Positions 1,782-34,220 are shown, counted from the stretch's first letter. The stretch is 35,684 nt of DNA from Nitrospirota bacterium (GCA_005877505.1 VBOO01000002.1:1-35684), one strand, 5' to 3'. Made by a program: numbers and translations. The notes: a model not told the origin generated them from the sequence alone.

Positions 1782-2297
1782 TTATTCGTGCGGCCGCTCG
1801 GCGGCCATGAGCCGCTTTTTCAGGATCCACATCTCATACAGCGGCACGCCCGCCATCACCAGGAACGAACCCACCATCAGCACGTCGCCCAACAGCATGG
1901 CCAGCGCGAAGTGGGGACTCACGTAGAGGATGAGCCACGGCGACACCAGGTCGAGGGCGACGCCCGCGAAGGCCAGCACGGTCATGCTTACTTTTAATGA
2001 CTGGCTGGCCAGCGTCAGATAGAACACGTGGCAGAGGATCAGGAAGACGACCGGCATCGTGAAGAAATGGAAGTGGGTCGTCTCGGCCAGTTCCTGGAAG
2101 GACTTGGGCTGCCCGAAGGTCTCATCCGAGCCGAGGTAATGCTGCGCGATGCCGGTATAGGAGAGACCGGTCATGCTGTGCGCCCAGTAGATGGTGAACA
2201 GAAACCCGGCGAAGATTGTCGCGATGAACAGCGTGTAGAGCAGGCGGATGTTGCGGTCGGTGTCGAGGAGCCGGAACCGGGTGTTGAAGTGGCGCAC
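1782..2297 (-). CDS. Histidine-rich four-helix membrane protein, putative redox partner
   Basis: 171 residues with four predicted membrane helices at about 19-37, 76-96, 103-125 and 130-152. Histidines lie in or at the ends of helices: H40, H75, H77 (THFHFF), H90 (CHVFY) and H129. This resembles small b-type cytochrome-like or DUF4405-like proteins, but I do not recognise a named family. The GTG start follows the stop of the FMN-binding gene by 7 bases, and no in-frame ATG lies between. As last gene of the porin-lipoprotein-flavoprotein cluster it is a candidate to pass electrons from the quinone pool to the periplasmic flavin. Heme binding is inference only. Confidence 0.6.
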   Translation of the reverse strand: MRHFNTRFRLLDTDRNIRLLYTLFIATIFAGFLFTIYWAHSMTGLSYTGIAQHYLGSDETFGQPKSFQELAETTHFHFFTMPVVFLILCHVFYLTLASQSLKVSMTVLAFAGVALDLVSPWLILYVSPHFALAMLLGDVLMVGSFLVMAGVPLYEMWILKKRLMAAERPHE

Positions 2298-2304
2298 GGC
2301 GGCG

Positions 2305-2922
2305 TCAGTGGGGAGTGAGGTAGAACTCGTCGATCAGGACGAGGGCGCGCTTCACGCCTGCGCTCACCGACCGGACCGACATCGTGGCGCCCGTGATGTT
2401 GATGATGTCCTTGTTGATGCGGATCGGGTCCAGCACGGTCTTGCCTTCGTACTGCGAGTTGAACCGTTTCTTCCGCACCTCGCTGCCCTTGCTCTCCCGG
2501 TATACCAGGATCTCGACGTCGGAGACCTTGCCGTCCGGCGTCACGCCGACAAGGTAGGTGATGGGCCGATGCTTGCCGATAGTCTCTTGAAGGACGGCGT
2601 AGCCGTCGATCTTGCCGTTGGTTTCCGCCTTGAAGGCGTGGAAGCTCTCTTCGGGGAACTTCCAGCCGATCCGCTCCTGGATCCGGGCCTTTTGCTCGGG
2701 CGTGAGCCGGAGCTCCTCAGCCTTGATGTTTTGGGACTTGGGGAACAGGAGCTTCAGGGCCTGCTCCTCGGTGAGGTACACCTCAACCTTGCCGATCTCT
2801 TCCTCGGTGAGATAGCGCTTCAGGTCGGGATCCCAGATGTGGTGGCTCGGCTCGGAGGCGTCGGCGATCGGAGCGAGGGCAACCCAGATGGGCAATGCGG
2901 CGGTCACCACGAGCCTCAGCAT
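2305..2922 (-). CDS. Periplasmic FMN-binding domain protein with flavinylation motif
   Basis: 205 residues. A signal peptide (MLRLVVTAALPIWVALAPIADA) is followed by an alpha-helical segment and a C-terminal FMN-binding domain like those of RnfG, NqrC and NosR. The motif TGATMS at about residues 177-182 fits the S/T-G-A-T-x-S/T core to which ApbE attaches FMN covalently. The preceding pattern ITYLVGVTPDGKVSDVEILVYRES is typical of this domain. The start ATG overlaps the stop of the upstream lipoprotein gene (ATGCTGA). It probably acts as an extracytoplasmic electron carrier. No apbE is visible in the window, so the flavin transferase must be encoded elsewhere. Confidence 0.8.
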   Translation of the reverse strand: MLRLVVTAALPIWVALAPIADASEPSHHIWDPDLKRYLTEEEIGKVEVYLTEEQALKLLFPKSQNIKAEELRLTPEQKARIQERIGWKFPEESFHAFKAETNGKIDGYAVLQETIGKHRPITYLVGVTPDGKVSDVEILVYRESKGSEVRKKRFNSQYEGKTVLDPIRINKDIINITGATMSVRSVSAGVKRALVLIDEFYLTPH

Positions 2923-3374
2923 CCCTTTTCCTTGAGGCGCCGGGCGATCTCGGCGGCCACCGCCTCTTCTTCCTGAGGGTTGCCGGGGACGGAGCGCCAC
3001 TGGCGCATGCGGGCACCCATGGGCGACCAGGCTTCGCGGAGCTGCAGCACCGTGGCCGCGGCCCCGGTCCTTTTCCGTTTCACCTCCACCACGTACCGCA
3101 CTCGTTCTTTGTTGACGTCGCGTTGCATGACGCCCGCGCGCGTCGAGCTGTCGACTTCCACCCAAGCTGTCTCCAGGACCCCCGTGGTTTTGTCGGCCGA
3201 TTGCAGACGCACCCCTGCGAGCGCGGCGATGGAGGTGTCCCACACCTGCTCGAAGGCGCACGGCGATGTCGCGGTCGGCTTTCCCTCCAGGGATGCGCAC
3301 CCGGCCAGCAGCAGACAGATGAACACGGCAAGCAATGTATGGGTTGCCACGACCATCTCGCAAAGGCGCGGCAT
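2916..3374 (-). CDS. Small outer-membrane-type lipoprotein, unknown function
   Basis: 152 residues from the first ATG; a start at the ATG at 3356 (MVVATHT) is equally possible because neither has a clear ribosome binding site. The lipobox LAGC follows a hydrophobic core. The body (VWDTSIAALAG, then TGVLETAWVEVD) recalls lipoproteins of the BamC/DUF3568 type, in which a repeated alpha/beta unit begins with a tryptophan and ends in GxLxTxW. That similarity is by eye only. It lies 11 bases after the porin stop and overlaps the FMN-binding gene, so the three are surely cotranscribed. A periplasmic-facing accessory role to the porin or flavoprotein is inference. Confidence 0.65.
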   Translation of the reverse strand: MPRLCEMVVATHTLLAVFICLLLAGCASLEGKPTATSPCAFEQVWDTSIAALAGVRLQSADKTTGVLETAWVEVDSSTRAGVMQRDVNKERVRYVVEVKRKRTGAAATVLQLREAWSPMGARMRQWRSVPGNPQEEEAVAAEIARRLKEKGC

Positions 3375-3385
3375 CTTAGCATGGT

Positions 3386-4810
3386 TTAGAAGTAGGTGGC
3401 CACGGACAGGACCAGTCCGTCGTTTCTGATGCGGTTGTTCTTGCCGTCCTCAAAGTTGAATTGATAATCCACCTTGAAGACCGTGTCCTCGACCGGGCGG
3501 AAATTCAGCCCCAGCGTCAGGCGCTCCCGTTTGGTGTCCGAGAACTCGCTGTTCGTGTTGATCTGATCCCATCGGGCGACGGCCGTGAAGGTGGACGCTT
3601 CCGTGAAATAGGACGGGGCCCAGCGCCGGAGGAATTGCGGCATGAAGTGGTAGTTGCCTTGCACGTAATAGCCGTCCATGCGCCGCGGCAGAAGCCGGAA
3701 ACCTGGAGCACAGGTGAACGTAGGAGGGTTGTCGCACGCGAAATTTCCATTTATCAGGCGGTCGTTGTCGCGGGCATAGACCCAGGCAGCCTCGCCGATG
3801 AGCTCAAAGGCTCCCCGCTGGAAGGTCCAATCGGCCGCCCAGATGCTGAGCGGCCGCTTGCTGGCCGGATCGTACGTGCCGAAGTACCCGGAGCCGCCGA
3901 CCTCGATACCCAAAATCGGACTGAAGGCCACACGGCCGACGACAGCTTTGCCATTGTTGTTGTCCAGCCCATCATCCTCCGTCGACACGCGTTGCCGCGC
4001 GTCCCTGAGGCCTGCACCGGCTGTGATGACCGGCGTCTCGTCTTTTTTGTAACCGTTGAAGCCTTGCGTCGCGTACAGTTCGTAATCCAGCTTCGACAGG
4101 CGGGTCGGGTAAAACGTCCCGTAAAACCCGGCGCCGGTTTCCGATAAGGTGGAGGGAATGATGGCCGTGGCGACCAGCGGGCGGTCCGAGAGGTCGTTGA
4201 GCGGAGAGTCATGCAGCAGGTTGAACTTGCCGACCGGCAACAGGATGATGCCCGCTCGGAAATTGAGCGGTTCTGCGATCAGGTAGTCGATGGTCGCGAA
4301 CTCAAGACTCACCTCGATGCCTCCGGAATCTTCCTGGGTTGACTTGGACCGGATTCCATGTTCGATCTCCAGCTCAGCGGCAACCTTGAGACGGTCGGTG
4401 ATGTCCGAGTAGAAGAACGGCACGAACCGCTGCTGGTCAAAACTGCTACTGCCTGCTCCGGTGCCGGGTTGTCCGACGCCAGTGGAATTGCTGCTGTTGA
4501 ACAACCGGTACTGCAGGTCCATGTAGCCGCCGACTGTCGTCCGGGGCGAGGAGAGGAACGGCTTGGCGTAGATAAGCTTGCCGCTGCCGGTGCTGCCGAA
4601 ACTCAGCGGCTTCTCGCCGATTTTTTTCTCCTTTTCCTTGGATTCTTTCTCCTCTTTGGCCTCGTGCTCCGTGAGCTCCTCCACCAACCTTTCCAGCCTC
4701 CTGATCCGTTCTTCGAGCGCCTTCTCGGTCTTCTCGTCGGCTACGGCTTCGAACGAGGCGCCGCCCAAAAGACAGGCTGTGAGGGCCCCGAGGATGACTA
4801 ATCGCCGCAT
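3386..4810 (-). CDS. Outer-membrane beta-barrel porin, OprP-like
   Basis: 474 residues. A signal peptide (MRRLVILGALTACLLGGASFEAVA) is followed by a highly charged coiled coil (about residues 25-65, with ERIRRLERLVEEL), then a long beta-rich domain ending in an aromatic residue (ATYF), as outer-membrane barrels do. The length, the coiled-coil N terminus and segments such as VGGYMDLQYRLF match porins of the phosphate-selective OprO/OprP type; the substrate cannot be read from sequence. The start has a textbook AGGAGG site. A Fur-like operator lies just upstream, suggesting iron-controlled expression, perhaps for uptake of an iron complex. First gene of a four-gene unit. Confidence 0.75.
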   Translation of the reverse strand: MRRLVILGALTACLLGGASFEAVADEKTEKALEERIRRLERLVEELTEHEAKEEKESKEKEKKIGEKPLSFGSTGSGKLIYAKPFLSSPRTTVGGYMDLQYRLFNSSNSTGVGQPGTGAGSSSFDQQRFVPFFYSDITDRLKVAAELEIEHGIRSKSTQEDSGGIEVSLEFATIDYLIAEPLNFRAGIILLPVGKFNLLHDSPLNDLSDRPLVATAIIPSTLSETGAGFYGTFYPTRLSKLDYELYATQGFNGYKKDETPVITAGAGLRDARQRVSTEDDGLDNNNGKAVVGRVAFSPILGIEVGGSGYFGTYDPASKRPLSIWAADWTFQRGAFELIGEAAWVYARDNDRLINGNFACDNPPTFTCAPGFRLLPRRMDGYYVQGNYHFMPQFLRRWAPSYFTEASTFTAVARWDQINTNSEFSDTKRERLTLGLNFRPVEDTVFKVDYQFNFEDGKNNRIRNDGLVLSVATYF

Positions 4811-4825
4811 GGTGATCCTCCTAAT

Positions 4826-4856
4826 TGATAATGTAATTGCGATTCGTTCTCATTAC
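4826..4856 (-). promoter_or_regulatory. Fur-box-like array upstream of the porin operon
   Basis: On the minus strand the stretch 4852-4838 reads TGAGAAC-G-AATCGCA, a degenerate 7-1-7 Fur site, sharing TGAGAACGA with the site upstream of fur. On the plus strand TGATAAT at 4826-4832 is a perfect Fur half-site facing it. The array lies 16-46 bases upstream of the porin start. Operator identity is inferred. Confidence 0.5.
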
Positions 4857-4870
4857 TTTCAGTAAAAAAA

Positions 4871-5911
4871 CTAACTCTTCGGGAACGTGACGATGTGGGT
4901 CGCCACGATCTTGAGGTCCACCGAAGTGCTGATCGGATAGACCGTTGTGGAGGCTTCGCTACTGTGCAGATGCTGCCCGGAGGGCAGGATCATCGTGTAG
5001 AGGTTCTCGGAGCCCCGGAACTGACGCCCCACGATCCGCGCCCCGCCCGGCGAGGCCGGCACGATGTGGACGTCGTCGGGCCGAATCATGATCTCGACGG
5101 CCGCCCCGGCTGGATGTCCCCTGACATTTTCAAAGACGCCCACCTCGGTGTGGATCTTGCCGTTGTCCACGCGGCCCAAGAGAAAATCGGCCTGGCCGAC
5201 GAAGTTGGCGACGAAGGGCGTCGAGGGCGTGTGGTAGATGGCCTCGGGCGCGTCCACCTGCTCCAGCCGGCCGTGATTGAGAACGGCGACCCGGTCGGCC
5301 ATGGCGAAAGCTTCGTCGTGGTCGTGCGTGACCAGCACGGCCGTCGTGCCGGTGAGCCGGAGGATTTCCTCCACCTCTTCCCGCATCTGGCCCCGCATGT
5401 CCGGATCCAGGTTGCTGAACGGCTCGTCCAGGAGCAGGACGATGGGCTTGGGAGCGAGCGCGCGGGCGAGCGCCACCCGTTGCTGCTGGCCGCCTGAGAG
5501 TTCGTGGGGGTAGCGGTCCCCAAAGCCGGAAAGCCCGACGAGGTCCAGCGTCTGGGCGACGGTGCGTGCGGCAGCTTCTTGCGGGAGGCGCTGAAGCCCG
5601 AAGGCAACGTTTTCCGTTACGGTGAGGTGCGGGAACAACGCGTAGTCCTGAAAGACCATGCCCACGCCGCGCTCTTCCGGCACCACCCAATGGCCGGCGT
5701 CGCAGACCGGCCGGCCGGCGATCGTGATCGCGCCGGCCTGGGGCCGCTCGAAGCCGGCAATGGCGCGGAGCACCGTGGTCTTGCCGCAGCCGCTGGGGCC
5801 GAGGATCGACAGGGTGGCGCCTTCGTCCACCTCAAGGGTGAGATCCACCAGGGCCGGCGTGGCGGCGTTGGTATAGGTGAGCGAGATCTGGCACAGCTCA
5901 ATCAGCGTCAT
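4871..5911 (-). CDS. fbpC: Fe3+ ABC importer, ATP-binding subunit
   Basis: 346 residues. Walker A GPSGCGKT at 38-45, Q-loop VFQDYALFPHLT, signature LSGGQQQR at 138-145, Walker B VLLLDEP at 158-164 and an H-loop histidine (VLVTHDHDEA) are all present. A C-terminal TOBE-type regulatory domain (about 240-346, IMIRPDDVHIV) is typical of FbpC/FutC and other Fe3+/spermidine-type importers. The start ATG overlaps the permease stop as ATGA, so the two are translationally coupled. It powers ferric iron uptake with the two genes before it. A run of seven Ts follows the stop codon on the minus strand but without a convincing hairpin. Confidence 0.9.
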   Translation of the reverse strand: MTLIELCQISLTYTNAATPALVDLTLEVDEGATLSILGPSGCGKTTVLRAIAGFERPQAGAITIAGRPVCDAGHWVVPEERGVGMVFQDYALFPHLTVTENVAFGLQRLPQEAAARTVAQTLDLVGLSGFGDRYPHELSGGQQQRVALARALAPKPIVLLLDEPFSNLDPDMRGQMREEVEEILRLTGTTAVLVTHDHDEAFAMADRVAVLNHGRLEQVDAPEAIYHTPSTPFVANFVGQADFLLGRVDNGKIHTEVGVFENVRGHPAGAAVEIMIRPDDVHIVPASPGGARIVGRQFRGSENLYTMILPSGQHLHSSEASTTVYPISTSVDLKIVATHIVTFPKS

Positions 5912-7530
5912 ACGAGTTTCTTCTCCCGCAGCCGCGTGACCACCATCCACGGGAGCGCCGTGAAGGCGATGAGCAGCAGGGCCATGACCGCCGCCCGCGC
6001 GTACTCCGCCTCCACGGTGTGGATGTAGACCCGCACCGGCAGCGTGTCGAACCCGGCCGGCCGCAGCAGCAGCGTGGCGTCGAGCTCCTTCATGGCGGAG
6101 ATGAACACGAGCGCCCAGACCGCAAACAGCGTGGGGCGGACCAGGGGCGCGAGGATGCGGCGCAGCACGCGCCACGGGGAGGCGGCGAGCGAGCGGGCCG
6201 CTTCTTCCAGATGCGGGTTGATGCCAGCGAGCGCCGCGTCCACGCCCTGGACCGCCTGGGTCAGGAAGCGGATCAGATAGGCCACCACGAGGATCCCGAC
6301 CGTGCCGTACACCCACGGGACGTAGGTGTTGTACAGGAGGATCAGACTCAAGCCGAGGACTGTGCCCGGGATGGCATAGCCGATTTGGATGGTGCCGGGC
6401 AGCAGCGCGCCGGTCCAGGGCGGCGTATGCCGGGCGGTGAACGCGATGAGGAGTCCGAGGATCACCGCGAGCGTGGCGGCGAGGCCCGCCATCAACAGAC
6501 TGTTCTTGATGTAGTCGTTTTGCTCGCGGACGACGTCCAGGAAGTGGCCGACTGAGCCGGTCTGCGCCAGCAGCACGCCCAGCGGGATGAACACCGACAG
6601 GCCCAGGACCGCGCCCGTAAGCAGGGCGGCGGGCCAGCGCCACCGGCCGAGGTGCAGCGGCCGCGCGAGCCGCGCCGTGCCGGTGATCGTGACGTACGAG
6701 CGACGGTGCAGGAGCATCTGTTGCCCCACCAGGATGGCGATGGTGATGAGGACGAGCACGAACGACAGCAGGGCGGCGGCGGCCTGATCGAACCGCGTGT
6801 TGAGTTGATGGTAGATGGCGGTGGTGAACACCTGCACGCGGAGCAGCGACGGCGAGCCAAAGTCCGACAGCGCGTAGAGGAAGGCCAGGAGCCCGCCCGC
6901 CAGGATGCTTGGCCGGAGCATCGGCAGCGTGACGCGGCGGAACACGCCCCAGGGGCTTTCGCCCAGCGAGCGGGCGGTCTCTTCCATGGAGGGATTGGTC
7001 GCCTCCAGCGCCGCGCTGACGAGCAGGAAGATGTACGGATACGTGAAGAGGCCCAGCACGAAGACCCCGCCCCAGAAGCCGTAGATGTTCACCCACTGCT
7101 GTGGGGACCCAGTCAAAGCGCTCAGCCAGTTGTTCACTGAGCCCACGGGCCCCAGCAGCGCGATATAGGACATGGCGCCGATGTAGGACGGGATCGCGAG
7201 CGGGATCACCGCCAGCCACCGACAGAGATTCCGGAAAGGCAGGTCGGTGCGGACGACGAGCCAGGCGAGCGGCAGGGCCAGGAGCATCGCCCAGATCGTC
7301 GCCAGCGTCGCGAGCGACAGGGTCATGGCGGCCAGGCGGACGAGCGAGCCGATCGTGACGGCGCCGAGTTCGCCAGCCTTCAGGGCCACGGCGACCAGGT
7401 AGAGCAGCGGGGGCAGAACCAGCAAGCCCACGCCGGCCAACAGCACGAAGGTGCCGGTCCGAGCAAGCGAGCCAGACGCCGGGGCCAGCGGCGCCGAGGG
7501 TGTGAGGGTGAGGGGGCCGGCCTGCGTCAT
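5908..7530 (-). CDS. fbpB: Fe3+ ABC importer, fused permease
   Basis: 540 residues with about 12 membrane helices, made of two permease halves in one chain, as in FbpB/FutB. Each half has its EAA loop that docks the ATPase: EETARSLGESPWGVFRRVTLPMLRP in the first and EEAARSLAASPWRVLRRILAPLVRP in the second (quoted in part by residue class; both contain the conserved A-x-x-L-G/A pattern). It starts one base after the stop of the binding-protein gene and overlaps the ATPase gene by 4 bases. The conserved gene order and architecture make the iron importer call firm. Confidence 0.9.
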   Translation of the reverse strand: MTQAGPLTLTPSAPLAPASGSLARTGTFVLLAGVGLLVLPPLLYLVAVALKAGELGAVTIGSLVRLAAMTLSLATLATIWAMLLALPLAWLVVRTDLPFRNLCRWLAVIPLAIPSYIGAMSYIALLGPVGSVNNWLSALTGSPQQWVNIYGFWGGVFVLGLFTYPYIFLLVSAALEATNPSMEETARSLGESPWGVFRRVTLPMLRPSILAGGLLAFLYALSDFGSPSLLRVQVFTTAIYHQLNTRFDQAAAALLSFVLVLITIAILVGQQMLLHRRSYVTITGTARLARPLHLGRWRWPAALLTGAVLGLSVFIPLGVLLAQTGSVGHFLDVVREQNDYIKNSLLMAGLAATLAVILGLLIAFTARHTPPWTGALLPGTIQIGYAIPGTVLGLSLILLYNTYVPWVYGTVGILVVAYLIRFLTQAVQGVDAALAGINPHLEEAARSLAASPWRVLRRILAPLVRPTLFAVWALVFISAMKELDATLLLRPAGFDTLPVRVYIHTVEAEYARAAVMALLLIAFTALPWMVVTRLREKKLV

Positions 7531-7531
7531 C

Positions 7532-8533
7532 TCACCAGTTCTGATTCAGCGAGGTGAGCAGCTTGAGGGTCGCCTCTTCCAGGTCGGCGAGCCGCTGGGC
7601 GGTGACGGCGGTCCGCTTGATGGACTTGAGCGGGGGGACCTCGCTCGAGTCCACGTGACCGGCCAGGGGGAACTCATAGTCCTGCGTGACGAGAATGCGC
7701 TGGCCTTCTGGTGACAGGACGAAGTCGATGAACTTGCGGGCGGCCTCAGGATTGGCGGCGCCTTTGATCACGGCAACGGCGTTGGGGTTGACCGGCGTGC
7801 CGATCCCGCCCGAGTCCTGGTCCGGGTACACCACACCCACGGGCAGGTTGTTCTGTCGCGCGAGGTAGTAGTTGGGCGAGTTGGTCAGGCCGATCGCAAA
7901 CTCGCCGCGCCCCACGCCCTGCCAGACCTCGGTGTTGTCCGTCAGGATCTTGAGGTCGTTCGCGTGCAGGCCCTTGAGGTAGTCGCGGGTGAACGCTTCC
8001 CCTTTGAGTGCGACGAGCGCGGTGGCCCACGCCAGGGTCGTTCGCTCGCGGGTCCCGGCAATGGCGAGCTTCCCTTTCCATTTGGGGTTGGTCAGGTCGA
8101 AGATCGACTTGGGCACGTCCTTCTCAGGAACCAGGGTCTTGTTATAGAGGATGACCCGCGCCCGGCCGGAGATGCCGGTCCACGTGCCCGCCGCGCTCCG
8201 GAAATCGTCAGTCACGGCCTTGGTCGCGGCCGACTGGTACGGGTCCAGCAGACCCTCCTTGGTCAGGATCTCCACGATCCCGCTTTCAGTGGAGATGAAG
8301 AGATCGCCGCGCGGGGGGGCCTTCTCCATGCGGATCTCGTTGGCCAGGCCCGAGGTTTTGCCGATTTTCAGATCCACCTGGATGCCGGTCTGCTTCGTGA
8401 ACGCGTCCACGACCGGCTTGACTGCCTTCTCCTTACGCCCCGAATAGATCACCAGGGAGTCGGCCGCGTCGGCCGGCAGAACGGGCAGCAGGCCCGCCAC
8501 GAACGCGAAGAGAACGCCGGCTAGCACGACCAT
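7532..8533 (-). CDS. fbpA: Fe3+ ABC importer, periplasmic binding protein
   Basis: 333 residues from the ATG at 8533, which opens a clear signal peptide (MVVLAGVLFAFVAGLLPVLPADA). The frame stays open further upstream into fur, but that part is not signal-like. The mature start LVIYSGRKEKAVKPVV is characteristic of FbpA/FutA ferric binding proteins. The paired tyrosines in NSPNYYLARQ match the iron-ligating YY motif. The gene follows fur by 13 bases and the permease follows it by one base. It captures ferric ion in the periplasm and hands it to the permease. Confidence 0.9.
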   Translation of the reverse strand: MVVLAGVLFAFVAGLLPVLPADAADSLVIYSGRKEKAVKPVVDAFTKQTGIQVDLKIGKTSGLANEIRMEKAPPRGDLFISTESGIVEILTKEGLLDPYQSAATKAVTDDFRSAAGTWTGISGRARVILYNKTLVPEKDVPKSIFDLTNPKWKGKLAIAGTRERTTLAWATALVALKGEAFTRDYLKGLHANDLKILTDNTEVWQGVGRGEFAIGLTNSPNYYLARQNNLPVGVVYPDQDSGGIGTPVNPNAVAVIKGAANPEAARKFIDFVLSPEGQRILVTQDYEFPLAGHVDSSEVPPLKSIKRTAVTAQRLADLEEATLKLLTSLNQNW

Positions 8534-8546
8534 TCCAACACGCCCT

Positions 8547-8975
8547 TCAATTTTTGCACTTGCTGCAGAGGCCGTAGAGCTCCAGCTTGTGCGTGGTGAT
8601 GGTGAACCCGTGCCGGCGGGCGACCTCCTCCTGCAGATGCTCGATGTCACAGTTCTCGAACTCGATGATCGCCCCGCAGTGGGTGCAGATCATGTGATCG
8701 TGGTGGCGCTTGTGAACCACGTTGTCGTAATGGGTCTGCGAGCCGAAGTGCCGCTCCTGGGCGATGCCCGATTCGCACAGCAGATTCAGGGTCCTGTAGA
8801 TGGTCGCCAGGCCGATGTGCGGCTTGTGGCGGCCCAGCATCCGGTAGAGCTGCTCGGCCGTGATGTGCTCATTGCGGAGGAAGGCGTCCAGGATGACCTC
8901 CCGCTGCTTGGTGACCTTCAGCCCGTGCTTGGAAAGGTGCTCCCGCAGTATCCCCAGCTCCTTTGCATGTCTCAT
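8547..8975 (-). CDS. fur: Ferric uptake regulator Fur
   Basis: 142 residues. An N-terminal winged helix (about 1-85, with TKQREVILDAFL and GLATIYRTLNLL) is followed by the metal-binding dimerisation domain with HHDHMICTHCG and a second CxxC near the end (CSKCKN), so a structural zinc site is intact. This composition fits Fur rather than Zur or PerR, though PerR cannot be fully excluded. It is the first gene of the iron importer operon, and a Fur-like box overlaps its own promoter, pointing to autoregulation. Confidence 0.9.
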   Translation of the reverse strand: MRHAKELGILREHLSKHGLKVTKQREVILDAFLRNEHITAEQLYRMLGRHKPHIGLATIYRTLNLLCESGIAQERHFGSQTHYDNVVHKRHHDHMICTHCGAIIEFENCDIEHLQEEVARRHGFTITTHKLELYGLCSKCKN

Positions 8976-8992: not shown

Positions 8993-9007
8993 TGAGAACG
9001 ATTATTA
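8993..9007 (-). promoter_or_regulatory. Fur-box-like operator upstream of fur
   Basis: The plus strand reads TGAGAAC-G-ATTATTA, close to the 7-1-7 Fur consensus TGATAAT-N-ATTATCA. It covers the end of the -10 element of the fur promoter and lies 18-32 bases upstream of the fur start, the right place for iron-dependent repression of fur and the importer. Confidence 0.65.
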
Positions 9008-9034
9008 TTACCGTATTCTTCTGGTGGCCGTCAA
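9005..9034 (-). promoter_or_regulatory. Sigma70-type promoter of the fur-iron importer operon
   Basis: On the minus strand TTGACG (9034-9029), an 18-base spacer and TAATAA (9010-9005). The -10 overlaps the Fur-like box, and the -35 directly abuts the palindromic repeat that starts at 9035. Confidence 0.6.
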
Positions 9035-29825: not shown

Positions 29826-32800
29826 TTAGGGTGAGACAGCCGCGGCGTAGGCAGTGAGATCACCGACAGATTCTGCGACATCAAACCCAGCGGCCTCCAC
29901 GGCCGTTCTCAGTTCCAGGTCGCGCAGGCGCACTTCCCGGTTGGTCCGATACGCATCGACGAGTTCGAGGATTCCCCGAGCACCCTCGCGATACGCGGTC
30001 TGGGCGGTCCGCAGCAGCCGTTCCGCCCGTTGCATGACGGCCGTTTGGTAGCGATCCCGCTCCGCTACGCGCTGCTGGTAGACGGCGGTGTCCCGTATGA
30101 CTTCGGTGTGAATGCGGGTCTCCAGCGCCTGGACATCCAATCGGGCGGCGTCTGCGGTCGAGCGCGCGGCCTGAATTGTGCCCTGTCCTCGGCGAATGAT
30201 GGGGATGGGGATGGACACACCCGCGAGCACGTCGGTGCTGGTCGGCCCAGCGCTGTTGAGCAGGCCCAGACTGAAGGTGACGTCCGGGACCACCTCCCGG
30301 CGGGCCAAGATGGCCGATGCCTCGGCTCCGCCGTGGAGAGCCCGGGCGGCCCTCAGGTCGCCGCGATTGCTCAGGGCCAACACGGTCAGGGCGCCGACTT
30401 CCGCATACGGCGGGCTCAGGTCCACAGGGACCACGATAAAAGAACCCGCGGGCGCGGTCGGGCCGATGGCTTTCCGCAGTTCCTCGCGGGCCCCTTTTTC
30501 GTCCGCCAACGCATCGCTCAACTCGGTCCGCACTCGCTCCGCCTCGAGCTCGCCGCGCGTCAGATCGTACTGGGCCGTCGCCCCCGACGCGACACGCTTT
30601 TTGAGCACTTCCACGACCTCTTCGAGCGAGGCAAGGTCCTGGCGGGTGAAGAGGATACGCTGTTGGGCGGCGAGGAGGCGGGAATAGGCCCGGAGGACGG
30701 CGAGACGCAGCCCGATATCGCGGACCTGGAAGGAGCCCTCCGCGGCGTCTCGGTTCGCTTCGGTCACCTGCCGGCGCAGTCCAAGTTTTCCAGTGAGCGG
30801 CACTGTCTGCGAGAGCGTATTGGAGTAATAGTGGTCCCCACTGGTCGGCGTGCCGGTATTGTTGTGCCCCTGCATATGCGAGAGGACCGGGTTTTCCAGA
30901 AGACCGGCGGCGCGGACCTGCTGGCGGGCCGCCTCCACGATCGCTTGGGCTGACTTTCGTTCCAGATTGCCCGCCTCGTAGGCCTTGAATGCTTCGCTCA
31001 GGGTCATCACCGGAGGAGATGAAACGCCAGGGACCTGTGTCATCATGCTCGGCTGCCCCTGCGCCGTCCCGCTCGCCGGCCCGGCGAGCACTGCCAGTGC
31101 GACCAGCAGCATGAACGTGGTGGGGGCCGGATGCGGCACCACGCCGGGACGCTCGACCTTGGCGAAGATTCTGAAGCTGAACAGCACCGGGATCAGGAAC
31201 AACGTCAGGGCGGTGGAAGTCACGATCCCTCCGATGATCACCAACGCGAAGGGCCGCTGGGTCTCAGAGCCCATTCCATGTGACAGGGCCGCCGGGACCA
31301 GCCCGAGCCCGGCGAGCAGAGCCGTCATAAGAATCGCGCGCAGCCGCATGTTCACGCCCTTGCGGATCAGGTCGTTGAGCGTCATCGGTTCCTCCTCCTG
31401 CTGCAGTTGCCGGAAGGTAGCGACGAGCAGCACACCATTGAGTACGGTTTGACCCATCAGGGCGATCAGGCCGACGGCCGCGGAGACCGAGAAGACCGTC
31501 CCGGTCAGCCACAGGGTCGCGATGCCGCCGACGAAGGCGCAGGGCGCCACCAGGATGATCAGCAAGGCGTCCCGGATTGATCCGAATGCGAGATACAATA
31601 GGGCTATCACTGCCAGGATCGCCATGGGGACGACAACCTTGAGGCGGGACATCGCCCGTTGCTGATTCTCGAATTCGCCTCCCCATGTCATGTAATAGCC
31701 TTCCGGGAGTTTGACCCTCGCTTCCACCTGCGCCATCGCTGCCTCCACGAAGCTCCCCATGTCGCGGTCCCCGATATTGCACTTGACCGCGATGAATTTG
31801 CTGTTGTTCTGGCGCCAGATTTGCGCGCGGCCGTCGGCCACGCGGATTTTGGCCAACGTATCCAACCGGATCCGGCCTCCGTCCGACGTGCCGATGGTTA
31901 TTTCCCCGATCCGCGAGGAGGTGGCGCGGCTGGGCTCGGCCAGAAGCACGCGGACGCCGAACCGCTTTTCCCCTTCCCAGTACTCGGTGGCGACGCGGCC
32001 GCCGATCGCGGTCTCGATGACCCGCTCAATGTCGGCCACGGTCAACCCGTGCCGGGCGATTTGGGGGCGGTCCAGTTCGATGAGCAGGTTGGGCACCATG
32101 CCGGTTCGGTAGATCGCTGGATCTCTCACCCCGCGGACAGTCTTGAGTGCAACCAGGACCTCGGCGGCCTTCGCTTGCAGGACTTCGTTGTCCTCGCCGA
32201 ACACTTTGATGACGACCTGCCCGCGGATGCCGCTGATGGCTTCCTCGACGTTGTCGCGGATCGGCTGGGAGAAATTAAACAACACGCCGGGGATATTGGA
32301 GACAACACCGCGCATGGCTTCTACGAGCTGGACCTTGGTCCGTCCTGTCGTCCACCCTTCCTCTGCGTGCAAGTGAATGAACGTCTCGCTTTGATTGGGC
32401 CCGATCGTGTCGGTGCCGTCCTCGGGGCGGCCCTGTTCGGACAAGACACCCTCGACTTCCGGGAACTGCGCTAGGAGGCGACGAATCTCGGCCAGCAGAT
32501 GCTGGCCCTCGGGCAGGGAGATGGCATTCGGCATCTCGACGTAGACGTGCAGATCACCTTCATTCAGTTCCGGCAGGAATTCCGTGCCAAGACGGGTCAG
32601 CAGGAAGCCGGACGCGAGCAGCAGCGCAACCATGCCCGCGAGCACGACCCCGCGCACGCGGAGAGCGTACACGACTAAGGGTTCAATCACGCGGCGGGCG
32701 GCGACCATGAACCAAGGTTCCAGCTCCTGGTGTGGGATGCGCTTGATGAGCAGGGCCGCCAGCGCGAGGACCGCCGTGAACGAGAAGAGGAGGGCGCCGG

Positions 32801-34220
32801 TCAGCGCAAAGGCGTAGGTATAAGCCATCGGCCTGAAGATCCGACCCTCCACCCGCTGGAACGTGTAAATTGGAATGAGCGCCGCCATGATGATGCTCAG
32901 CGAGAAGAGCGTGGGCACCGCCACCTCTTTGGCGGCTTGGGCGATCACGATTGGGACCCGGTGCGGGTCGGGCCGGCGCTCCGTCAGGCGACGGTAGATG
33001 TTTTCGATCAGGATCACGGCACCGTCCACGATGATGCCGAAATCAATCGCCCCCATGGAGATCAGATTGGCCGGCACCTTGATGAGATACAGCCCCGCGA
33101 AGGCTGTCAGCAGGGAGGCGGGGATGATGATAGCGACGGCTACGGACCCGCGCCACGACCGCAGGAAGAGCCAGACGACCCCGGTGACCAGCAACGCGCC
33201 TTCCAGGAGATTCGTACGGACCGTGTGGAGGGTGCGTTGGACGAAGGTCGTGCGGTCGATAAACGGCACGATCTTGACGCCAGCGGGCAGGATGCCATTG
33301 TTGAGACGATCCACCTGCTGTCGAACCAGTTCCAGCACGATCGACGGGTTCTCGCCCCGCCGCATCAGCACGAACCCTTCCACGGCCTCGGGTTTCGTTC
33401 CTCGCCCGACCGCGCCCTGGCGCGGCGTATGGGCCTCGACCAGCGTGGCGACATCTTTGACACGGACCGGCGTGCCTTTCTCGGCCGTCAGCACGATCTC
33501 CTTGATGTCGTCAGGCGAACGGAGCAAGCCGAGCCCCCTCACGATGTATTGCTCCTGTCCGTGGAGAATGTGGCCGGCGCCGATATTGGCGTTGGACCGG
33601 GAGAGAGCGTCGTAGACGGTGGTGAGAGTGATGCCGTGCGCCTTGAGCCGGTCAGGGTCCACCAGAATGTGGATCTCCTTCCGGAACCCACCCTGGGCGA
33701 CGATATCGGCCACCCCGGGAATCTGCTTGAGGAATGGGACAATCGTCCAATCTAGGAGAGTGCGGAGTTCCGTTGGCGATTTTCCTCCGCCTTCGACCGT
33801 GAACTGATACACCTCGCCCAACGGCGTGATCTGTGGGCCTAGGACAGACACCACGCCGTCCGGCAGGTCCACCTGGCGCAGACGCTCCGTGACCACTTGC
33901 CGCGCGAAGTACATGTCCACTTCGTCGTCGAAGGTGACGATGATGTAGGACAGCCCGAAGACGGAGACGGACCGCATGTCGATGGCCTTGGGCAACGCGC
34001 TCAGGCCCCGCTCCAACGGGATCGTCACTTGCCGTTCCACTTCTTCTGAGGCCTGGCCGGGAAAGAGCGTGATGATGTTGACTTGAAGATTCGTGACGTC
34101 CGGATAGGCCTCGATCGGCAGGCTGAAATAGGCGTAGACGCCGTAAATGAGAAGCGCGAGCGTGAAGAGCAGCGTTGCAGTCCGGCGGTGTACCGCCAGG
34201 TCGATAAGTCGGTCCAGCAT
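29826..34220 (-). CDS. Heavy-metal efflux RND pump fused to outer-membrane factor (CzcA-CzcC type)
   Basis: 1464 residues. Residues 1 to about 1020 are a complete HME-type RND pump. DFGIIVDGAVILIEN near residue 390-405 is the divalent-metal (CzcA-like) signature in helix 4, unlike the monovalent CusA form. After a linker, a hydrophobic stretch (about 1026-1044, FMLLVALAVLAGPASGTAQG) resembles a signal peptide or extra membrane helix, leading into a TolC-like outer-membrane factor (about 1060-1464) with two repeats of the OEP domain (ALSNRGDLRAARALHGGAEA and similar). Such fusions are known in some Bacteroidetes and others. It exports Zn/Co/Cd/Ni-type ions, with the adaptor gene 12 bases upstream. 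Confidence 0.9.
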   Translation of the reverse strand: MLDRLIDLAVHRRTATLLFTLALLIYGVYAYFSLPIEAYPDVTNLQVNIITLFPGQASEEVERQVTIPLERGLSALPKAIDMRSVSVFGLSYIIVTFDDEVDMYFARQVVTERLRQVDLPDGVVSVLGPQITPLGEVYQFTVEGGGKSPTELRTLLDWTIVPFLKQIPGVADIVAQGGFRKEIHILVDPDRLKAHGITLTTVYDALSRSNANIGAGHILHGQEQYIVRGLGLLRSPDDIKEIVLTAEKGTPVRVKDVATLVEAHTPRQGAVGRGTKPEAVEGFVLMRRGENPSIVLELVRQQVDRLNNGILPAGVKIVPFIDRTTFVQRTLHTVRTNLLEGALLVTGVVWLFLRSWRGSVAVAIIIPASLLTAFAGLYLIKVPANLISMGAIDFGIIVDGAVILIENIYRRLTERRPDPHRVPIVIAQAAKEVAVPTLFSLSIIMAALIPIYTFQRVEGRIFRPMAYTYAFALTGALLFSFTAVLALAALLIKRIPHQELEPWFMVAARRVIEPLVVYALRVRGVVLAGMVALLLASGFLLTRLGTEFLPELNEGDLHVYVEMPNAISLPEGQHLLAEIRRLLAQFPEVEGVLSEQGRPEDGTDTIGPNQSETFIHLHAEEGWTTGRTKVQLVEAMRGVVSNIPGVLFNFSQPIRDNVEEAISGIRGQVVIKVFGEDNEVLQAKAAEVLVALKTVRGVRDPAIYRTGMVPNLLIELDRPQIARHGLTVADIERVIETAIGGRVATEYWEGEKRFGVRVLLAEPSRATSSRIGEITIGTSDGGRIRLDTLAKIRVADGRAQIWRQNNSKFIAVKCNIGDRDMGSFVEAAMAQVEARVKLPEGYYMTWGGEFENQQRAMSRLKVVVPMAILAVIALLYLAFGSIRDALLIILVAPCAFVGGIATLWLTGTVFSVSAAVGLIALMGQTVLNGVLLVATFRQLQQEEEPMTLNDLIRKGVNMRLRAILMTALLAGLGLVPAALSHGMGSETQRPFALVIIGGIVTSTALTLFLIPVLFSFRIFAKVERPGVVPHPAPTTFMLLVALAVLAGPASGTAQGQPSMMTQVPGVSSPPVMTLSEAFKAYEAGNLERKSAQAIVEAARQQVRAAGLLENPVLSHMQGHNNTGTPTSGDHYYSNTLSQTVPLTGKLGLRRQVTEANRDAAEGSFQVRDIGLRLAVLRAYSRLLAAQQRILFTRQDLASLEEVVEVLKKRVASGATAQYDLTRGELEAERVRTELSDALADEKGAREELRKAIGPTAPAGSFIVVPVDLSPPYAEVGALTVLALSNRGDLRAARALHGGAEASAILARREVVPDVTFSLGLLNSAGPTSTDVLAGVSIPIPIIRRGQGTIQAARSTADAARLDVQALETRIHTEVIRDTAVYQQRVAERDRYQTAVMQRAERLLRTAQTAYREGARGILELVDAYRTNREVRLRDLELRTAVEAAGFDVAESVGDLTAYAAAVSP

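Follow-up and report, generated by a model that had tools for sequence, protein, structure and literature searches.

A Fur-linked gene module of Nitrospirales with a porin, a lipoprotein, an FMN_bind protein and a four-helix membrane protein: a candidate flavin-based electron relay for iron acquisition

The window analysed here, a stretch of 35,684 nucleotides, is a contig of a metagenome-assembled genome (MAG) from Nitrospirota, order Nitrospirales (GCA_005877505.1 VBOO01000002.1:1-35684; genome G000, 87% complete). A run of genes on its minus strand consists of fur, fbpA, fbpB, fbpC and four further genes encoding a porin, a lipoprotein, an FMN_bind protein and a 171-residue membrane protein, hereafter TM171. 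We refer to the last four as the module, and to its FMN_bind protein as FMNb, and consider it rather probable that the module is a flavin-based electron relay serving Fur-controlled iron acquisition. The features of the locus are as follows (elsewhere, labels beginning with G denote genomes and those beginning with L denote loci).

1782..2297, minus strand: TM171, inner-membrane protein with four transmembrane helices (TM), proposed electron relay; conserved H53, H75, H77, H90, D116 and M141
2305..2922, minus strand: secreted protein with an FMN_bind domain of RnfG/NqrC type, proposed substrate of ApbE; PF04205, E=3e-11
2377..2394, minus strand: TGATMS flavinylation-type motif, residues 177-182 of the FMN_bind protein, from the sequence
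2916..3374, minus strand: lipoprotein; lipobox C26 and two other invariant cysteines, C39 and C152
3386..4810, minus strand: outer-membrane porin with N-terminal coiled coil and OprP/OprO-like barrel, from fold match
about 4827..4852, minus strand: degenerate Fur-like element TGAGAACGAATCGCAATTACATTATC before the porin gene, not significant in the window
4871..5911, minus strand: FbpC-type ABC ATPase; ABC_tran and TOBE_2
5908..7530, minus strand: FbpB-type double permease; BPD_transp_1 twice
7532..8533, minus strand: FbpA-type iron-binding protein with Tyr-Tyr pair (SPNYYLA); SBP_bac_6 and sequence
8547..8975, minus strand: Fur repressor; PF01475, E=2e-36
8994..9012, no strand assigned: Fur box GAGAACGATTATTATTACC before fur, 15/19 to consensus

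The intergenic gaps from fur through TM171 are 13, 1, -4, 60, 11, -7 and 7 bp. The porin gene thus begins 60 bp behind fur-fbpABC, and the four module genes are packed against each other (11, -7 and 7 bp). Because the gaps are small, the layout suggests that fur-fbpABC and the module form one transcription unit. A preliminary description, made from the sequence, had placed four tightly packed genes beside a fur-Fe3+ importer operon and had noticed an FMN-binding domain with TGATMS in one product. Coordinates and Pfam matches bear out the first point, and PF04205 together with TGATMS at residues 177-182 confirms the second.

The FMN_bind domain of FMNb scores 44.1 bits against a curated cut-off of 22 (PF04205), and the GATMS motif is invariant across 25 aligned orthologues. 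The protein is predicted to be secreted with a cleavable signal. It does not qualify as RnfG/RsxG (TIGR01947, 41 bits against a cut-off of 102), and no other Rnf or Nqr genes were seen in the cluster or the neighbourhoods read. In 46/58 relatives the genome encodes no other FMN_bind protein. ApbE, present in 54/58 relatives, adjoins the module or is fused to it in many. Seventeen loci from two families have a gene, confirmed as belonging to the ApbE family, located between fbp genes and porin and in most cases divergent from the latter. Sister orders of the class encode ApbE and FMN_bind together as a single open reading frame (ORF) of about 490-600 amino acids; ten such ORFs were read, and both domains are over cut-off in all four that were tested. 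Porin and TM171 flank this fused gene, with Fur and FbpABC close by; at locus L082 it lies near Fur, a cupredoxin and an FTR1 permease in place of FbpABC. We infer from these arrangements that FMNb may be flavinylated by ApbE and would then carry a covalent flavin.

The module is inherited as a unit. The order porin, lipoprotein, FMN_bind protein, TM171 is kept in all 28 Nitrospirales loci read, and TM171 is present in 55/58 close relatives, as a single copy in nearly all. In a class-level draw that included 113 Nitrospirales genomes, TM171 and FMNb are both present in the same 96 and both absent from the same 17 (Fisher p about 1e-20, a value that ignores phylogeny and linkage). The preliminary description had staked its proposal on such an order and such co-conservation, and both were found. 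The porin is absent in 14/17 module-free genomes vs 1/96 module-bearing ones, and ApbE in 10/17 vs 4/96. The absences are spread over at least seven genera, and G112, a genome in a single contig, is among them. The absences in G092, G122 and G139, three of the 17, in which searches did not find the module, are probably truncation artefacts, since the fbp locus or ApbE sits at a contig end. In other orders, short-form TM171 and module-type FMNb occur in one and the same set of 17 genomes. A scan of genome contigs with one protein matched close relatives only, and the distribution counts cover Nitrospirota.

Seven module-free genomes show what can stand at the locus instead. They retain fbpABC and tonB, and mostly exbB and exbD too, while the segment from apbE to TM171 is absent and its place is occupied by a receptor of about 780-815 amino acids. 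Plug and TonB_dep_Rec barrel domains score over cut-off in all seven receptors, and among solved structures FecA, the receptor for ferric dicitrate, is closest to them. The window's own family has no exbBD-tonB genes at the corresponding locus. A FecA-like receptor is found in 12/17 module-free vs 11/96 module-bearing genomes (p 1e-6). Strict mutual exclusion was considered and is ruled out by those 11 genomes that carry both, three of them on the module's contig. Because G035, G141 and G155 hold module and receptor on one contig, within a few kb, the two are alternatives able to coexist. At one locus with the replacing receptor (L104, 6782-7602), a PepSY-domain protein and a 150-residue secreted protein precede it.

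Profile and sequence searches with TM171 returned no match in Pfam, NCBIfam or the PDB. None of 28 members has a Pfam match, PepSY, MsrQ and DUF4405 included, and a fold search against the PDB, with solved membrane cytochromes included, gave a best E of 2.3 and none at 0.001 or below. The AlphaFold2 model (predicted local distance difference test, pLDDT, 85) has helices at residues 15-43, 47-55, 67-92, 99-125 and 130-157, four of them long; four helices had been noticed from the sequence beforehand. Among 40 short-form sequences, H75, H77 and H90 are invariant, H53 and M141 are each kept in 39, and position 116 is D in 38 and E in 2. The three invariant histidines lie in TM2 and M141 in TM4. 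In the model, H75, H77, D116 and M141 sit at a similar depth, about one third in from the periplasmic side, and all four are also kept in both aligned long paralogues. H90 is near the cytoplasmic side with R18, Y21 and K102, and is lost in the long form. These positions suggest a putative site for heme or metal on the periplasmic side of the protein and, perhaps, one for quinone nearer the cytoplasm. The conserved H75, H77, H90 and M141 are at most compatible with heme b bound by histidines of the central helices; a TM171 dimer could be a source of further ligands, as has been proposed for FezC.

The best indirect evidence that the TM171 family carries electrons comes from its long paralogue (about 240 amino acids), which has a CxxCH in its first periplasmic loop and cytochrome or bc neighbours. 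At three loci (L057 8817-11248, L085 5628-8071 and L088 664-3111) the paralogue accompanies a small c-cytochrome and a one-heme Cyc2-like porin, forming a heme counterpart of the flavin module; 'Cyc2-like' is assigned from size, CxxCH position and porin-like sequence, with no Pfam match. At L087 (5073-8089) it stands in a row with a Rieske protein, a cytochrome b that bears a c-heme domain, and a c-cytochrome. Membership in a family unrelated to electron transfer, an outcome that the preliminary description had held against its own proposal, was not found: no family is assigned, and the paralogue has its c-heme motif near c-cytochromes or a bc complex. We regard it as probable from sequence context that TM171 has a redox role. 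The alternative that survives best is that TM171 handles metal at H75, H77, D116 and M141 or acts as a scaffold, with another membrane enzyme supplying the flavoprotein with electrons. The iron-transport context, the lack of a cytochrome fold or family match and the paucity of conserved histidines, too few for two bis-His hemes per chain, all agree with it. We nevertheless think it unlikely, as TM171 tracks FMNb perfectly and is always adjacent to it, no second membrane redox gene was seen in the module, and the metal-site reading leaves aside the c-heme motif and neighbours of the paralogue.

Iron control is clearest at fur itself, where the box at 8994-9012 matches 15/19 positions of the E. 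coli Fur consensus, a score reached by 0/300 shuffles. A Fur-like array had also been described ahead of the module genes. This part did not stand for the window, whose porin promoter is at chance level, but strong boxes do precede the porin in relatives. Fur boxes of at least 15/19 occur upstream of the orthologous porin in 12/27 loci vs 0.05 expected from shuffles, counted against the E. coli consensus alone, a matrix seeded partly with these loci having been set aside as circular. A GAGAA(C/T)GA half-site before the porin is conserved in 4/5 family members; the window shares it with L037, L038, L040 and L041, and L039-L041 carry better Fur boxes (13-15/19) in the same intergenic stretch. 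Across families, Fur and FbpABC or FTR1 adjoin the module, and bacterioferritin genes are nearby in many relatives. In several Nitrospirales, a MauG/MbnH-like heme protein is encoded directly downstream of the module (L042 10341-12239 and similar).

It could be argued that the flavin relay has a role unrelated to reducing iron, for example in peroxide defence, cytochrome maturation or the repair of metal sites, and lies beside iron genes because Fur controls it. The nearby MauG/MbnH-like protein would suit such a role, as would the persistence of FbpABC without the module. However, a FecA-like receptor takes the module's place at the same locus, and FTR1 with a cupredoxin replaces FbpABC in another lineage, so we rate this explanation somewhat lower still than a metal-handling or scaffold TM171.

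In its model the porin is a beta-barrel that carries a coiled coil at the N terminus, and in fold it most resembles OprP (2o4v, E=1.5e-13, TM-scores 0.50/0.57); no Pfam or NCBIfam porin family was matched at E below 1. A second porin copy lies immediately downstream of TM171 at L044 (9903-11417) and L045 (9786-11282). The lipoprotein evolves fast, with the lipobox cysteine and two further cysteines kept, and in Pfam it gave sub-threshold matches only (DUF3576 and NlpB-like). It is probably an accessory envelope part.

Sequence shows directly which parts make up the module, how they are ordered and co-inherited, that ApbE is linked or fused to it, that it lies among iron-transporter genes and that a TonB-dependent receptor can take its place. 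From this we propose the following path. TM171, possibly through a heme, would take electrons, most likely from quinol, and pass them to the secreted FMN_bind protein bearing its ApbE-attached flavin. The reduced flavoprotein would in turn reduce Fe(III) complexes in the periplasm, which would enter via the porin, or via the TonB-dependent receptor where present. Freed iron would then be bound by FbpA and enter the cell through FbpBC, or through FTR1 instead in some lineages. The redox-iron idea of the preliminary description is supported and much strengthened by co-inheritance, the ApbE link and fusion, the iron-gene context and the receptor swap; the ApbE linkage and ApbE::FMN_bind fusion, the FecA-like replacement and the exchange of FbpABC for FTR1 go beyond it. 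Flow in the opposite direction, with the flavin passing electrons from periplasmic Fe(II) to a cytochrome or the quinone pool, is highly improbable: the c-heme paralogue adjoins a Cyc2-like porin cytochrome and a ferric FbpA would take the product, but Fur repression suits iron shortage rather than Fe(II) surplus, and in characterised systems the covalent flavins of FMN_bind proteins donate electrons at low potential. Given Fur control and no multiheme cytochromes at the module, dissimilatory extracellular iron respiration was put aside.

Several observations weigh against a flavin relay for iron acquisition. The porin promoter of the window reaches at best 11/19 to the E. coli Fur consensus, as do 42% of shuffles. 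ApbE was not detected in the window's own MAG; an assembly gap is likely, because ApbE was found in 6/7 of its family relatives (G001-G003 and G005-G007). It was likewise not detected in G048 (L066), G010 and G145, which carry TM171 and FMNb, and these absences are unexplained unless the genomes are incomplete there. TM171 matches no known cytochrome fold or family, and a single chain lacks the four-histidine pattern of PepSY, MsrQ and DUF4405 proteins. Where MAGs are fragmented, linkage makes co-absence look stronger than it is. Loci read from other orders showed no lipoprotein, which, being fast-evolving as well, appears to be the least essential part of the module. FbpB is retained in 10/12 tested genomes without a detected module (three contig-edge cases among these), and therefore the importer does not need the module. 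Finally, FbpA bears the Tyr pair typical of ferric binders, so that Fe(II) is not the obvious transported form. Reduction would therefore more likely serve to release iron from chelates than to supply a ferrous importer.

Nitrospira, of the order Nitrospirales, are major nitrite oxidisers with heavy iron needs, and the module is present in most Nitrospirales genomes. A conserved gene set in nitrite-oxidising Nitrospirales and their relatives probably sends membrane electrons to a periplasmic flavoprotein, freeing iron for uptake. More tentatively, and as a possibility rather than an expectation, TM171 may be the founder of a new class of membrane electron carriers that work specifically with an ApbE-flavinylated protein. 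Together with the porin, it may form a TonB-independent, flavin-driven iron route able to replace a FecA-type receptor at one Fur-controlled locus across the class Nitrospiria, nitrite-oxidising lineages included. If true, this would be a new way of acquiring iron, built on a membrane electron-carrier family without a Pfam model. A porin and a flavin reductase could then replace a TonB receptor at one locus, and one operon would make the flavin-iron link testable.

Two features elsewhere in the window are recorded here. In a single ORF of 1464 amino acids (29826-34220, minus strand), residues 6-1015 form a resistance-nodulation-division (RND) pump (ACR_tran) and the part from residue 1075 is an outer-membrane efflux protein (OEP); a signal-like stretch separates them. 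Such a fusion of inner- and outer-membrane proteins is topologically odd. At 236-360, GGTATTGCATATCC...ATTTGATCGAA occurs in two near copies adjoining a tRNA-like stretch.

Clusters that join flavinylation to iron transporters are known as precedent (eLife 2021, PMC8238504), and PepSY/DUF2271/ApbE flavinylation clusters are Fur-repressed in Shewanella and Caulobacter (PMC8238504). The module shares with these ApbE, a secreted flavinylated protein, a membrane electron-transfer protein, iron genes and Fur control. Its membrane partner, however, is a four-helix protein without a PepSY match, its flavoprotein is of the FMN_bind/RnfG type, and a porin and a lipoprotein belong to it as well. In P19/FTR1 clusters that include FMN_bind (PMC8238504), this gene likewise adjoins an iron permease, FTR1 being the permease in one Nitrospiria lineage (L082), whereas most module lineages have Fur-FbpABC, and all of this is combined with a dedicated membrane protein and porin. 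MsrQ-like, DUF4405 and FezC cytochromes are small His-bearing membrane proteins near ApbE or iron functions, and FezC was modelled to form heme sites by dimerising (mSystems 2024, PMC11334425). TM171 differs in having no DUF4405 or other Pfam match and in its conserved H53, H75, H77 and H90, which are not four central helix histidines in one chain. RnfG and NqrC resemble FMNb in the FMN_bind domain, the GAT flavinylation motif and weak full-length similarity, but the module has no nearby Rnf or Nqr genes, its protein has a predicted cleavable signal, and RnfG models score far below cut-off. The main text of both flavinylation surveys mentions neither Nitrospirota nor porins, and the literature searched held no relevant paper joining Nitrospira with ApbE/flavinylation or iron limitation. 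In Caulobacter, xenosiderophore use involves a PepSY protein that resembles a ferri-siderophore reductase (PMC12424826). Such HiuABC/FoxB-type PepSY siderophore reductases also pair Fur regulation with periplasmic reduction for chelated-iron uptake, but the window's cluster has no TonB-dependent receptor, and a flavoprotein relay would replace the PepSY reductase. Relative to known flavinylation-based iron assimilation, the module is new in its membrane partner, its porin and its exchange with a receptor.

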